NCBI RefSeq assembly: GCF_000210915.2
Contig: NC_016620.1
Coordinates: forward strand, 2,480,001 to 2,544,000
DNA length: 64,000 nt
Direction: 5' to 3'
DNA from: Halobacteriovorax marinus SJ
Lineage (GTDB): Bacteria; Bdellovibrionota; Bacteriovoracia; Bacteriovoracales; Bacteriovoracaceae
This document shows, one piece after another, positions 52,100 to 63,191 of the stretch (positions are counted from its first letter, which is position 1; each line of letters starts with the position of its first letter). Both the position numbers and the translations under genes were made by a program. Below the pieces are notes generated by a model. It did not search any database, was not told the origin of the DNA, and saw only the letters and a program-made list of their open reading frames with translations.

Positions 52100-53239
52100 T
52101 TAATAAGATTGCTTATAGTCTTGATCGTAGCTTTTTAGCTCGTTAATTAAAGAGTTCACTTCTTTACTGTGACGCAGTTGCTTTTTGTATTCTCTTGTTA
52201 GAGATGACTCAAAAGCATCTTTCTTTATCTTTACAACTGGCTCAATACCTATTGAAGCTGGCTTTCTAGTTGTCTTTGTCTTAGTTGAAGCAATAGAGCG
52301 AGCTGCTTTATCTTTCTTTTGACCAAAGATATAAACCTTCACTCCCGATTTCTTACTATACTTAGAAACTTTCTTCACTTTAGGCTTTTTCATATTTACC
52401 GTCTGCATCTTCTTAGAATAGTAATCAGCGAGGGCACCATCAAGACTTTTTTCTGCACTATGGTCTCTTCTATAAATAATCTCGGCCTCAGACTTTTCTT
52501 TATCAAGCTCTACAATAGAAGCAATGGCCCTCTCCTTCTTCTGAGAAGGGGAAGATTTAAACATTCTTGTATCTTGAGCCGTTAGAATACTCTCTACAGG
52601 TTTAATATTCTTCTTTTGAACTTCTGACTTATCAAAGAGCGCTTGAAGCTTAGTAAAAGTATTACTTCCAACTGGTGTTGGGTTTCTAGGTGCTCCATTA
52701 TTGTATTCCTTAGAAATAAAAGAGAACTTCCCAGATGAAACATCAAGCTTTAAATAATCTTCAAAGAGATTTGCAAATGAAAAGTTTCCATTTAGAACAA
52801 GGATTTGTGTCTTAACAATACTATTGTCAAAGTCAACAATGGCCTCTCCTTCAGAAAATGAAACTACACTATTTGGTGTTTGAATTTTATAGTGATCAGA
52901 ATTTTTCTCATGAGATTGTACCCATAAATAACCATTTTGAAGTTCTAAAAAACCTTTTAAGATTTTTGCACTACTACCACCGGCAAAATGAAAAACTTGG
53001 TCTTTAAAGTTTTTTACAGTAAGTTGCCCCCCAACCTCTGTATATACTTCTTGGAAATCATAAATATGATCTCCTGGCTTAAGAGTTACAGTTTTACCTT
53101 TAGATACAAGAAAGGCATTTCCTTTTACAGAAGTCACCATCATCTCAGGCGAGTTTGCAAAAGTTAAACTCATTGAAATAAATGTAATAAAGAATGAGAG
53201 TAAACTAATTCTTTTTGTGTCTTTGTACAATTTTCTCAT
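52100..53239 (-). CDS. FecR-domain exported protein
   Basis: A 379-residue exported protein. After a signal peptide (LLSFFITFISMSLTFA) comes a FecR-like domain at about 35-170: VTSVKGNAFLVSKGKTVTLKPGDHI, GGQLTVKNF and YKIQTPNSVVSFSEGEAIVDF. The C-terminal 180 residues are lysine-rich and disordered-looking. FecR domains in non-siderophore contexts occur in envelope proteins with structural or peptidoglycan roles. The gene overlaps the end of the TPR gene upstream by 35 bases, so the two are translationally linked. Function is inferred from the domain only. Confidence 0.72.
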   Translation of the reverse strand: MRKLYKDTKRISLLSFFITFISMSLTFANSPEMMVTSVKGNAFLVSKGKTVTLKPGDHIYDFQEVYTEVGGQLTVKNFKDQVFHFAGGSSAKILKGFLELQNGYLWVQSHEKNSDHYKIQTPNSVVSFSEGEAIVDFDNSIVKTQILVLNGNFSFANLFEDYLKLDVSSGKFSFISKEYNNGAPRNPTPVGSNTFTKLQALFDKSEVQKKNIKPVESILTAQDTRMFKSSPSQKKERAIASIVELDKEKSEAEIIYRRDHSAEKSLDGALADYYSKKMQTVNMKKPKVKKVSKYSKKSGVKVYIFGQKKDKAARSIASTKTKTTRKPASIGIEPVVKIKKDAFESSLTREYKKQLRHSKEVNSLINELKSYDQDYKQSY

Positions 53240-58271: not shown

Positions 58272-58532
58272 CTACAGAGAGAGGATTCCTGGAATTGTTG
58301 AAACTTTTTGATACATCTGAATAACTTCATCAGAAGAGTTACAAACACTGGTAAAGCTAACAGAAGTATACTTGCCATTTTTAGATGGTTTTTCAGATAA
58401 TTTATTACCCTCAACCATCCCCTCTAAAGTCTTTAATTCTGTACTTGGAACAATGAATTTAAATAAATATGGCGCAGGCCAAGTATATTGGTCATCTAAT
58501 AATGCTTTAAATTTTTCTAATTCTGATATCAT
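58272..58532 (-). CDS. DUF493/YbeD-family small protein
   Basis: An 86-residue protein of the DUF493 (YbeD) ferredoxin-like-fold family: a conserved core YLFKFIVPS near residue 22 and the closing QKVSTIPGILSL. YbeD resembles the ACT/regulatory fold, and its function is unknown. AAGG precedes the ATG. It may be co-transcribed with gpsA. Confidence 0.75.
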   Translation of the reverse strand: MISELEKFKALLDDQYTWPAPYLFKFIVPSTELKTLEGMVEGNKLSEKPSKNGKYTSVSFTSVCNSSDEVIQMYQKVSTIPGILSL

Positions 58533-58656: not shown

Positions 58657-59742
58657 TTGAGACTGATTTTATTATTTGCGCTGCTATTTAACTTCTCCAA
58701 TATTCTCGGTGATGAGTATTGGCATTATAGAGAATACCTCGACAACTTCCCTATTCAAAAAACTAAGATTGCCAACTTAAAAAAACTGGTAGAAGAAGAT
58801 GCAAAAAAGTTAAACCAAAAACAAAACAAAACTGCGCAAATCGTATTTATCTATCCAGGCAAACAGATCTCTGATTATTGGAGAAGAAATATTACTGCAC
58901 TTGAAAAAAGACTTACCGACTCTGGAGTGAAGTTTAATATAAAACTTATTCCTGTTGAGACAGGTTCAAGTGTAAATGAAGAGACCAAAGATATTATAAG
59001 AGCAATTAAGAATAGGCCGGACTATTTAATCTTTACTCTAAATGTGAAAGATCATGCAAAATTAATAAATCAAATTCTATCATTCTCAAAGATTAAATTA
59101 ATCTTACTCAATATAACGACACCGCTTAAAACACTTGGGAAGAATCAGCCGTTCTTCTATGTAGGCTTTGATCATGAGGAAGGTTCTAAGAAAATTATAG
59201 AGACAATTAAAGAGCGTTACCCAGATGGAGGAGATTATATGGTGCTTTACCACTCAGAGGGCTATGTCAGTCAGATGAGAGGAGACTATATGATCAAGGA
59301 ACTTAGAGAAAGCAAAAAGTGGAATTTAAAAGCTAGATACTATACTAATGGTCAGGGTAAACGTGCAGAAATCGCAATTAATGACTTCTTTAAAAAGAAT
59401 AAGAAAGTTGATCTCATTATTTCCTGCTCAACAGATATAAGTTTAGCCGCAGCTAAATATAAAAATAAGAAAGATTTTATATTAAATGGATGGGGAGGCA
59501 GAAGCTCTGAGATTGATAATATACAGAGTAAGAAAAGTGGTATTGATTTTACTGTCATGAGAATTAATGATGATAGTGCCATTGCTGTAGCAGAAGCTAT
59601 AAAGCTTGATCTTCAAAATAAGTCCAATATGGTTCCTATGATTTTTTCAGGAGAGATGGTAATTATCGATAAAAATACCTCTAAAGAAAAACTCCGCTCT
59701 TTAGAGAAAAGGGCCTTTAGGTATTCTAATGAAGAAATCTAA
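58657..59742 (+). CDS. luxP: LuxP-type autoinducer-2 binding protein
   Basis: A periplasmic binding protein of 361 residues with signal MRLILLFALLFNFSNILG. It is clearly LuxP-like across its length: YPGKQISDYW, LNITTP, QPFFYVGFDHEEGS, LYHSEGYVSQMRGDYM, CSTDIS, NGWGGRSSE and VMRINDDSAIAVAEAIK. All residues I know to contact borated AI-2 in Vibrio LuxP are conserved in place: Gln70, Ser72, Trp75, Asn152, Arg208, Ser258-Thr259-Asp260, Trp279 and Arg302 (LuxP 77, 79, 82, 159, 215, 265-267, 289, 310). The start is TTG with AAGGA six bases upstream. It overlaps the kinase gene by 14 bases, as luxP precedes luxQ. Confidence 0.93.
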   Translation: MRLILLFALLFNFSNILGDEYWHYREYLDNFPIQKTKIANLKKLVEEDAKKLNQKQNKTAQIVFIYPGKQISDYWRRNITALEKRLTDSGVKFNIKLIPVETGSSVNEETKDIIRAIKNRPDYLIFTLNVKDHAKLINQILSFSKIKLILLNITTPLKTLGKNQPFFYVGFDHEEGSKKIIETIKERYPDGGDYMVLYHSEGYVSQMRGDYMIKELRESKKWNLKARYYTNGQGKRAEIAINDFFKKNKKVDLIISCSTDISLAAAKYKNKKDFILNGWGGRSSEIDNIQSKKSGIDFTVMRINDDSAIAVAEAIKLDLQNKSNMVPMIFSGEMVIIDKNTSKEKLRSLEKRAFRYSNEEI

Positions 59743-61831
59743 AGATATTAAAATTTCTTATCTCTTAGGAATTATCATTATTGTCATAGTAACCCTAGTG
59801 ACGATTCCTCTTTTCTATAATCAATTCAACTCCTCTATGCTCCTACTTAAAGATAAAACGATTGATGACTTTAAGGATGAAGAGAAGTTAACGGAAGTAT
59901 TTATAACATCTCAACTAGAGGCCAAGAGAGTTCAGTTGCGAGAAGCTGCGAATAATTTTGAATTAAGAAAATTATTAGAGTCAAAGGGAAGTAGTGCCTT
60001 AACGAACGTTCTTAAGAAGGTAGTCACATCCCCTATTGACGCGGACTTTATTTTTCTATCATATGATGGGAGTGAGCAAATTACAGATGTTAGTCTCAAT
60101 ATTTTAAATACGAAGCAAATCATAAATGATTACTTAGAAAATCATTCCATTGAAAGAGACTTTGAACTCTATACGACAAAGACCTCTAACCTTATCGCAT
60201 TTCTAAAAGAAGACATCATATCAAGAAAGACAGGTCGTATTCTTGCAACTATGCATACAGGATATATTCTAAATAATAGAGCAAGTTTCTTTAACAACTT
60301 ATCTCTTAAAGTTTTAAAGACTAATTTCTACTTTATTATTAATGACAATGTTTATTCTAGTTCAGGAGTCATGAGCGTTGATGACGCAAAGGCCATTACT
60401 TCTGCTAAAGTAGGAAGCTTAATTCAATCAAATAAGAAATTATTCTATATAACAAAAGTAAAACTTGATGATATTTACAGTATCAAGGTCGCTTTTGAAA
60501 CAAGCTCCAACTACGTTAAAAATCTTAAAAGTTCTTATATATACAACTTTCTGATTACAGTTCTAACCTCCATCTTACTTTGTATTATAGCTATCTATAT
60601 CGCGAATAGATTGATCACTCCTCCATTAGAACATATCGTGAATACTATTAGTTTACTAATGATTCGAAACTTAAGGTCGACACCAAGAAGAAGTTTTATT
60701 AGAGAGTTTAATTTAATAGAAGATAACTTCATCTCCGTCTTTGATAAGTTTCAGCAAAAGAAGTCTCAACTTGCAAGTTTTGTGAGTTCTTCACCAATTT
60801 CAATTTTGATTTTAGATTACAAAGGTAAGATTATTCAAACTAATGATGCGAGTATAAACCTATTTGAGATCAGTGATAAGAATGGAAATATTTTAAAAGA
60901 TAGCGCTCTAAAAAATTGCGATGACTTCAAAGAGATGCTCTCAACAATAAAAGATCGTAAGAAAATTTTTGAAGATGAATTCAACTTTAAGTCAGGTGAA
61001 AAGTGGAAGAATACTCTTTGGACAATTCACCAAGACAATAAAGAGAATTATATATTCATTCAATGTGTAGACAATACTGAAAAGCTTGAAACTCAATCTA
61101 TCATTGAGGCCCAAAGATCAAAGTCAGTTCACAATCAAAAACTTGCTGCCATTGGGGAGATTGCAAGTAGTGTCGCTCATGAAATTAATAATCCAATGGG
61201 AATCGTATCACTCTCTCTAACAATGCTTGAAAACGAGCTTGAACAACTAGAGATCAACAGTGAAAAGAAAAAAGAGAATATAAGAAAGTCTATTTCCAAT
61301 ATTGAAAACTCTGTTGAGAGAACATCGCAGATCATCTCAAACTTACTGGATTTCTCTAGAGAAGGAAGTAAAGACCGCTTAGAGTCTAAAAACCTAGACC
61401 TCGTTTTAAATAAAACCCTTCTCTTTATTGAAGAGAAATTAAAAAAGAATAAGATTACTCTCAATACGCAGGGACTAGATAAAGATATAAATATTTACAT
61501 AAAGGAAACACAATTCTCTCAAATACTTGTCAATCTCTTCAATAACTCAATTGATTCCCTAATTGGACAGGAGCGCAGAGAGATTGACCTCTCAACAAGA
61601 GTTGAAGACACAACTTGCTACCTTCACTTTAAAGACACCGGAAGAGGAATACCAAAAGAGCTGGAAGAGAAAATCTTCTCGCCATTTTTTACCACAAAAT
61701 CAGTTGGTAGTGGAACAGGCCTTGGACTTAGTATTTCCAAAAACTTATTACTTGAAATGTCTGGTGATATAAAACTTGAGAGAGAAGATTCAGGAGCTCA
61801 CTTTATTGTGAGCATCCCTATAAAAAATTAA
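59729..61831 (+). CDS. LuxQ-like sensor histidine kinase lacking a receiver domain
   Basis: A 700-residue membrane kinase, probable partner of LuxP. Order: first helix (11-30), a periplasmic sensor domain (about 31-268) in the place of the LuxQ sensor, second helix (272-292), a linker, PAS (about 350-450, [19 protein letters not shown]), HisKA with His484 ([14 protein letters not shown]), and HATPase with [16 protein letters not shown] and [13 protein letters not shown], ending at residue 700. Vibrio LuxQ is longer because a receiver follows; here it is absent, so phosphate must go to a separate regulator, not seen in this window. It shares 14 bases with luxP, showing coupling. Confidence 0.87.
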
Positions 61832-62392
61832 TTAGAACTTGACGAGATTACCATCGAGATCATGTATCTCAGGAGTTTTCCCGTGAGCATATCTCAAGAT
61901 GTCTATCACTTCTCTAGCAGAACCAATTCCAGACATAGATGTGATATAGTCCGCTTTCTCTCTCACCTCTAAAGATGCACCAGGAACAGTTGCTGAAAAA
62001 CCACTGGCCATCATTAGTGGAATATCAAAGAACTCATCTCCCATGTAGAGAATTTCTTCTCTTTCATATCCCTGTGCAAGAAGCTCTTTAAAAGACTCTC
62101 TCTTATCCTCATTACCGTAGTAAACAAAATCAAGTTTTAAGTTCTCTTTAAATCTTTTAAGTACACTTAGAGAGTCTCCACCAGTGATAACTCCAACTTT
62201 AAAACCAAAGCTCTTTAGCATCTTAAGTCCATAACCATCACGTGTATCGGTGAATCGATTCCACGCCATTTCATCCCCACTGTACCAAACTTTTCCATCA
62301 GTTAAGATTCCATCAACATCAAATGCAACGACTTTGATTTTGAGAAGTTTTTCTTCAAATTTCTTAGCAACTTCTTTTAGATTAATTTCCAT
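61832..62392 (-). CDS. kdsC: 3-deoxy-D-manno-octulosonate 8-phosphate phosphatase
   Basis: Small C0-type HAD phosphatase of Kdo (lipopolysaccharide core) synthesis, 186 residues. Motif I is VVAFDVDGILTDG, followed by RDGYGLKMLKSFGFKVGVITGG (motif II threonine) and MGDEFFDIPLMMASGFSATV. I use the ATG at 62392 with AAGGA at good spacing; a TTG at 62395 is possible. It overlaps the end of kdsA, forming a pyrG-kdsA-kdsC unit. Confidence 0.92.
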   Translation of the reverse strand: MEINLKEVAKKFEEKLLKIKVVAFDVDGILTDGKVWYSGDEMAWNRFTDTRDGYGLKMLKSFGFKVGVITGGDSLSVLKRFKENLKLDFVYYGNEDKRESFKELLAQGYEREEILYMGDEFFDIPLMMASGFSATVPGASLEVREKADYITSMSGIGSAREVIDILRYAHGKTPEIHDLDGNLVKF

Positions 62393-63191
62393 CAACTACA
62401 TCCTTAATTTGTATTAGCTTCCTTACAATGCTCTGAACTTTATCAATAGGTAGAGCCGTTGCCGAGTCAGAGAGTGCTTTTTCAGGGTTTGGATGACACT
62501 CCATAAAAATCCCGTCAGCTCCAGCAGCAACTGCTGCTTTGGCCAATGTAAATATCTGCTCTCTCTTCCCACCTGTCTGAGTACCTAAACCACCAGGTCT
62601 TTGTACGCAATGAGTAGCATCATGAATAGTCCTTACACCAAAGCTTTTCATAATCTGAAAGCTTGCCATATCTACGACAAGATTATTATATCCAAAGCTT
62701 GTCCCTCTCTCAGTAAGAAGAATCTTATCTTTTGAGAGGAAGTTGAGCGCTTTATCTACAATATTCTTTGTCTCTTCCGGGCTTAGGAATTGCCCCTTCT
62801 TCACTTTTAATTGTCCATTATATTTTGCACAAGCTTCTGCACCGGCCAAGATCATATCTGTCTGTCGACAAAGAAATGCTGGAACTTGTAATGTTTGAAC
62901 GACGCTTGCAATTTTCTCAGCTTGTTCAGGATGATGAAAGTCCGTAATTGTTGGAAGAGAATAAGTCTTCGCAACTTTCTCTAAAATCTTTAGACCGTCA
63001 TCGATCCCTGGTCCTCTATAAGAATCAATAGATGATCTATTGGCCTTATCGAAACTTCCTTTAAAGTGTAACTGAATTCTCCCCTCAAACTCTTTGAGGT
63101 CTTCAACTAACTTACCTGCAATATCCATTGCTAAAGTTTCACTTTCTAGAACACAAGGTCCAATAAAGAAGTCCATTTTTTTATTTTCCAT
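62382..63191 (-). CDS. kdsA: 3-deoxy-D-manno-octulosonate 8-phosphate synthase
   Basis: Condenses arabinose-5-phosphate and PEP in Kdo synthesis. About 269 residues (usual 270-285). It shows FFIGPCVLESETLAMDIA, HFKGSFDKANRSSIDSYRGPG, QVPAFLCRQTDMILA, KKGQFLSPEETKNI, LTERGTSFGYNNLVVDM, THCVQRPGGLG and FMECHPNPEKALSD. The frame is open further upstream inside pyrG, but the ATG at 63191 (or 63176) gives the normal N-terminus. The first eleven bases overlap the pyrG stop, a coupled arrangement. Confidence 0.93.
   Translation of the reverse strand: MENKKMDFFIGPCVLESETLAMDIAGKLVEDLKEFEGRIQLHFKGSFDKANRSSIDSYRGPGIDDGLKILEKVAKTYSLPTITDFHHPEQAEKIASVVQTLQVPAFLCRQTDMILAGAEACAKYNGQLKVKKGQFLSPEETKNIVDKALNFLSKDKILLTERGTSFGYNNLVVDMASFQIMKSFGVRTIHDATHCVQRPGGLGTQTGGKREQIFTLAKAAVAAGADGIFMECHPNPEKALSDSATALPIDKVQSIVRKLIQIKDVVDGN

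Follow-up and report, generated by a model that had tools for sequence, protein, structure and literature searches.

A probable LuxP-LuxQ-type autoinducer-2 receptor in the luxS-lacking marine predator Halobacteriovorax marinus SJ

A LuxP homologue with an intact autoinducer-2 (AI-2) pocket and an overlapping gene for a membrane kinase with a LuxQ sensor fold are encoded by Halobacteriovorax marinus SJ, an obligate marine predator whose genome has no luxS. We consider it probable that the two proteins form a LuxP-LuxQ-type AI-2 receptor and that the predator is an AI-2 'listener'. The pair was found in a stretch of 64,000 nucleotides (contig NC_016620.1, positions 2,480,001 to 2,544,000; hereafter the window), where it is inserted between two genes that adjoin each other in most of the relatives lacking it (Table 1).

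Table 1. Features of the luxPQ locus (positions are those of the window)
Feature	Position	Strand	Evidence or remark
DUF493 gene, left border of the luxPQ insertion	58272..58532	-	directly next to kdsC in relatives that lack luxPQ
AAGGA, probable ribosome-binding site of luxP, 6 nt upstream of its TTG start codon	58646..58650	+	direct reading
luxP homologue, periplasmic AI-2-binding protein (predicted binding), 361 aa	58657..59742	+	phmmer against PDB, PF13407, AF2 model, Foldseek
Probable signal peptide of LuxP, MRLILLFALLFNFSNILG	58657..58710	+	by eye from the translation, hydrophobic stretch
Span with the seven AI-2 hydrogen-bonding residues Q70, S72, W75, N152, R208, T259 and R302	58864..59562	+	alignment, residue list of PMC9687752
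luxQ-like membrane histidine kinase, 700 aa, without receiver domain and without adjacent response regulator	59729..61831	+	
Periplasmic LuxQ-type sensor domain between two transmembrane helices	59816..60547	+	hydropathy, hhalign, PF09308, Foldseek
Kinase core, HisKA (H484, HEINNP) and HATPase_c; N, G1, F and G2 boxes intact	61154..61825	+	
kdsC-like HAD phosphatase, right border of the luxPQ insertion	61832..62395	-	

The LuxP homologue

An earlier note on this DNA had read the gene at 58657-59742 as luxP by eye, and the searches bore this out. Residues 19-358 of the protein matched four PDB LuxP sequences (phmmer, E 6e-83 to 2e-82), with about 40% identity to Vibrio harveyi LuxP in the alignment, while the next PDB match was a sugar-binding protein at E 0.0096. 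Judged from these comparisons, the homology to LuxP is far beyond chance. The AlphaFold2 model (pLDDT 89.4) had LuxP structures as its best eight PDB fold matches in Foldseek, with E values passing from about 1e-34 for LuxP chains to 1e-15 for the next solute-binding proteins. It was superposed on AI-2-bound LuxP (1jx6) with an rmsd of 1.6 A over 341 columns (target-normalised TM 0.95), against 3.4 A for apo LuxP. Homology, contact residues, fold and tree position all place the protein in the LuxP family.

According to a previous study, AI-2 is hydrogen-bonded in 1JX6 by Gln77, Ser79, Trp82, Asn159, Arg215, Thr266 and Arg310 (PMC9687752). The window protein has the same residue at each of these seven positions: the alignment pairs Q77, S79, W82, N159, R215, T266 and R310 with Q70, S72, W75, N152, R208, T259 and R302, and Trp289 is conserved as W279. 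The conservation of the AI-2 contacts at matching spacing that the note had stated is thus borne out, and the model retains the ligand pocket in the fold of AI-2-bound LuxP. We also aligned 86 LuxP-like proteins, including the V. harveyi receptor, together with one transporter-linked relative from Ruegeria. The seven contacts are identical in the window LuxP and five relatives of its phylum and invariant or nearly so among the 86 LuxPs, of which almost all likewise keep W289; the Ruegeria protein differs at two of them (Q77 to D, N159 to A).

It is unlikely, though worth weighing, that the pair senses another cyclic sugar or sugar-borate instead of AI-2, such as a pentulose from digested prey. 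LuxP has the Peripla_BP_4 fold of sugar-binding proteins, the V. harveyi receptor also responds to L-xylulose and L-xylosone with borate (PMC12921845), and the window protein shares only about 40% identity with LuxPs that have been tested. Because of this level of identity and the binding of AI-2 mimics by LuxP, the native ligand of the window LuxP could differ from AI-2. However, the seven contacts and W289 are kept across the genus and in almost all of the 86 LuxPs, and the model fits the AI-2-bound form better than the apo form, which argues for AI-2.

In the Campylobacterota-group LuxPs L029 and L109, Gln77 is replaced by Glu, and in L107 Ser79 is replaced by Thr; these substitutions in the AI-2 site may alter ligand preference. 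R215 is missing in one divergent LuxP-like protein (L106). Since these four sequences deviate, the AI-2 contact motif, as read from the alignment, is not immutable across the wider LuxP family.

The LuxQ-like kinase

The note had identified LuxP correctly and understated it, and had overlooked the adjacent LuxQ-type kinase, whose gene overlaps luxP by 14 bp. Hydropathy places the two transmembrane helices of the kinase at aa 11-29 and 274-292. A Pfam scan of the window kinase alone gave no LuxQ-periplasm match at E 0.1. When a profile of five Halobacteriovorax sequences was compared with nine LuxQ-type periplasmic domains by hhalign, they were matched with 99.4% probability (E 5.7e-21, 234 columns), and a whole-genome search with PF09308 had this kinase as its sole match, at E 2e-4 and below the curated cut-off. 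The best six PDB fold matches of the modelled sensor domain (pLDDT 77.5) were all LuxQ periplasmic domains, and its identity to the solved LuxQ domains is about 11-17%.

The cytoplasmic half is of another kind. The closest NCBIfam model to the kinase core is AtoS, and Pfam detected HisKA and HATPase_c only, with no Response_reg in the protein, whereas V. campbellii LuxQ shows Response_reg. The NCBIfam LuxQ_Vibrio score is 119.6 against a cut-off of 1200. The kinase therefore has the LuxQ-type periplasmic domain beside luxP without the hybrid architecture and C-terminal receiver of LuxQ, and because of the absent Response_reg and the low LuxQ_Vibrio score it is LuxQ-like in its sensor half and not a LuxQ equivalog.

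We regard it as highly improbable that luxP serves only as the binding protein of a sugar ABC transporter, unrelated to signalling. The Ruegeria relative, about 24% identical, does adjoin ABC transporter genes, but no transporter ATPase or permease genes lie beside luxP in the window, where the neighbours are the kinase and housekeeping genes; the overlapping gene encodes a kinase with the LuxQ sensor fold, and a very long branch separates the LuxP clade from the Ruegeria protein.

Locus and distribution

The 'Bdellovibrio-like' label given in the note holds for this genome, which belongs to the genus Halobacteriovorax. A search of 369 genomes of the phylum found LuxP in six, five of them of Halobacteriovorax and one (G050) of another genus (g16) of the same family; G047, which is likewise of g16, did not belong to the six carriers. 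The luxP-luxQ pair is adjacent in all five Halobacteriovorax genomes and in G050, and it lies between DUF493/gpsA and kdsC/kdsA/pyrG in all five genomes of the genus. We read six family members that lack luxPQ: in five of them kdsC and DUF493 lie side by side, and in the sixth (G003) the site is occupied. Because kdsC and DUF493 adjoin in relatives without luxPQ, an insertion in the Halobacteriovorax lineage is the most likely origin of the pair, as far as gene order tells. The G050 pair has different neighbours from those in Halobacteriovorax, which suggests a separate transfer or a rearrangement. No mobile-element or plasmid context was seen at the locus, which is a conserved housekeeping cluster, and a promoter and terminator scan there was no richer than shuffled sequence.

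In G003, a cytoplasmic PAS-HisKA kinase and a type-3 solute-binding protein are encoded in the gap between kdsC and DUF493 (L122, 2318-3385 and 3382-4122). Over 261 aa, this kinase and the core of the window kinase share 32% identity. The window kinase may have arisen when a LuxQ sensor was fused to a resident kinase; general kinase similarity could also explain the likeness.

Elsewhere in the window, a 379-aa protein without Pfam match at E 0.001 is encoded at 52100-53239 on the minus strand, beside a YfiO/TPR-like protein; it is possibly exported, having an N-terminal hydrophobic stretch.

Phylogeny of LuxP and its partners in other bacteria

In the LuxP tree, the Halobacteriovorax proteins group together (100/99) outside the Vibrionaceae-plus-Aliagarivorans clade (96/93), and the LuxPs nearest to them are those of Campylobacterota. 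The outgroup was one generic sugar-binding relative (Ruegeria) on a very long branch, and the root is unsure. With this single such outgroup, the window protein did not fall among generic sugar-binding proteins, the placement that the note had named as the one to watch for. Recent transfer from Vibrio prey was also considered and is unsupported, the Halobacteriovorax LuxPs lying outside the Vibrionaceae clade (root unsure). A scan of viral contigs found no LuxP relative.

The annotated non-Vibrio LuxPs precede LuxQ-periplasm proteins with varied outputs. LuxP is followed by a LuxQ-periplasm protein with GGDEF-EAL in Neptuniibacter (L084), by a LuxQ-periplasm kinase in Thalassobaculaceae (L073), by a LuxQ-periplasm hybrid kinase with Hpt in Desulfocapsa (L037), and by a LuxQ-periplasm protein with GGDEF (L029) or a kinase (L079) in Campylobacterota; in Oceanimonas (L044), the open frame of the LuxQ-periplasm protein adds PAS domains only. 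No luxS was found in the Desulfocapsa, Thalassobaculaceae and Neptuniibacter genomes, which are MAGs and maybe incomplete, and luxS is present in the genomes of the remaining annotated non-Vibrio LuxPs (L029, L044, L079). LuxP with LuxQ-periplasm appears to be a mobile sensor module that has been coupled to c-di-GMP enzymes, kinases or hybrid kinases in several phyla of marine bacteria, in part without luxS.

Absence of luxS and possible signalling route

The genome searched is complete (3.44 Mb in two contigs, 100% completeness). The absence of luxS that the note reported for the window extends to the whole genome, where PF02664 had no match, and luxS was likewise not found in the five relatives carrying luxP; an SAH hydrolase is present. 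Because luxS is absent and SAH hydrolase is used instead, the cell cannot synthesise AI-2 by the LuxS route, and the alternative of own signalling offered in the note is excluded in its LuxS-based form. There is still a slight chance that the pair serves true quorum sensing, reporting the predator's own population by means of AI-2 that is formed independently of LuxS. AI-2-like compounds can arise without LuxS in other organisms, for example MHF made by Cff1p in yeast (cited in PMC12921845). Such signalling has against it the lack of luxS in the complete genome and in the five luxP-carrying relatives, and the replacement of the LuxS route by SAH hydrolase.

A search for LuxU and LuxO gave, at the level of domains only, five Hpt matches and several sigma-54 activators in the genome, and several NtrC-type activators are encoded. 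NtrC-type activators are the usual partner class of AtoS-like kinases.

As a LuxP-LuxQ-type receptor, the pair would work as follows. AI-2 from prey or neighbours would enter the periplasm and be bound by secreted periplasmic LuxP, most likely as S-THMF-borate, the borate diester forming in borate-rich seawater. The LuxQ-like kinase encoded next to it would carry LuxP on its periplasmic domain, and binding of AI-2 would alter the pairing of LuxP with this domain and shift the kinase between kinase and phosphatase states. Because the kinase has no receiver domain, it would be expected to phosphorylate a separate response regulator directly, with no relay through LuxU to LuxO. Since the cell makes no AI-2 by the LuxS route, the system would listen to nearby AI-2 producers, possibly prey.

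Relation to known AI-2 receptors

Compared with the LuxP-LuxQ systems of V. harveyi and V. cholerae (1JX6, 2HJ9, 1ZHH, 3C38), the window pair has in common the LuxP fold with all AI-2 contacts, the order of luxP followed by luxQ, and a LuxQ-type periplasmic domain between two transmembrane helices. It differs in that Vibrio LuxQ is a hybrid kinase, whereas the window kinase core is AtoS/NtrB-like and has no receiver domain; furthermore, its periplasmic domain is very divergent and the host has no luxS. The LsrB and dCache AI-2 receptors likewise sense AI-2 in the periplasm but are of different families, the top fold matches of the window protein being LuxP.

LuxP was still described as restricted to Vibrio in 2025 (mBio, PMC11796354). 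Rezzonico and Duffy (2008, PMC2561040) reported LuxP homologues in marine Oceanospirillales and deltaproteobacteria that are luxS-negative, in the genera Neptuniibacter, Marinomonas, Desulfuromonas and Desulfovibrio. These LuxPs resemble the present case in the lack of LuxS, in lying beside PAS-containing signalling proteins in several cases, and in the same listener hypothesis; however, the organisms belong to other phyla or classes, the output domains are others, and none is an obligate bacterial predator. The note had held that LuxP was not known in Bdellovibrio-like predators. This does not stand, as in the part of a 2024 survey available to us Bacteriovorax marinus SJ is entered as an 'AI-2 listener' with LuxP present and LuxS absent (PMC11069264). 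In that part, presence and absence are stated on the basis of 28 LuxP candidates, whose tree is not displayed, and the pocket, a partner kinase, the insertion site and predation are not discussed. A search of the open literature for Halobacteriovorax LuxP or Bacteriovorax AI-2 found nothing beyond this survey. The presence of the receptor was thus already known, while the LuxQ-type partner with its swapped kinase, the insertion and the phylogeny were not found published in the open literature searched.

Prey sensing through luxPQ is plausible, its only link to predation being the lifestyle of the genus. We tentatively suggest, as a possibility we would put at rather less than even, that the predator acquired LuxP-LuxQ, rewired it to its own kinase circuit and eavesdrops on the AI-2 of prey to tell that prey is present or to time its attack or intraperiplasmic growth phases. 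LuxP stands here beside a LuxQ-type partner in a predator that does not make AI-2 by the known route and is likely to meet AI-2 producers, and, if the pair works in this way, the predator would be eavesdropping on a quorum signal of other bacteria.
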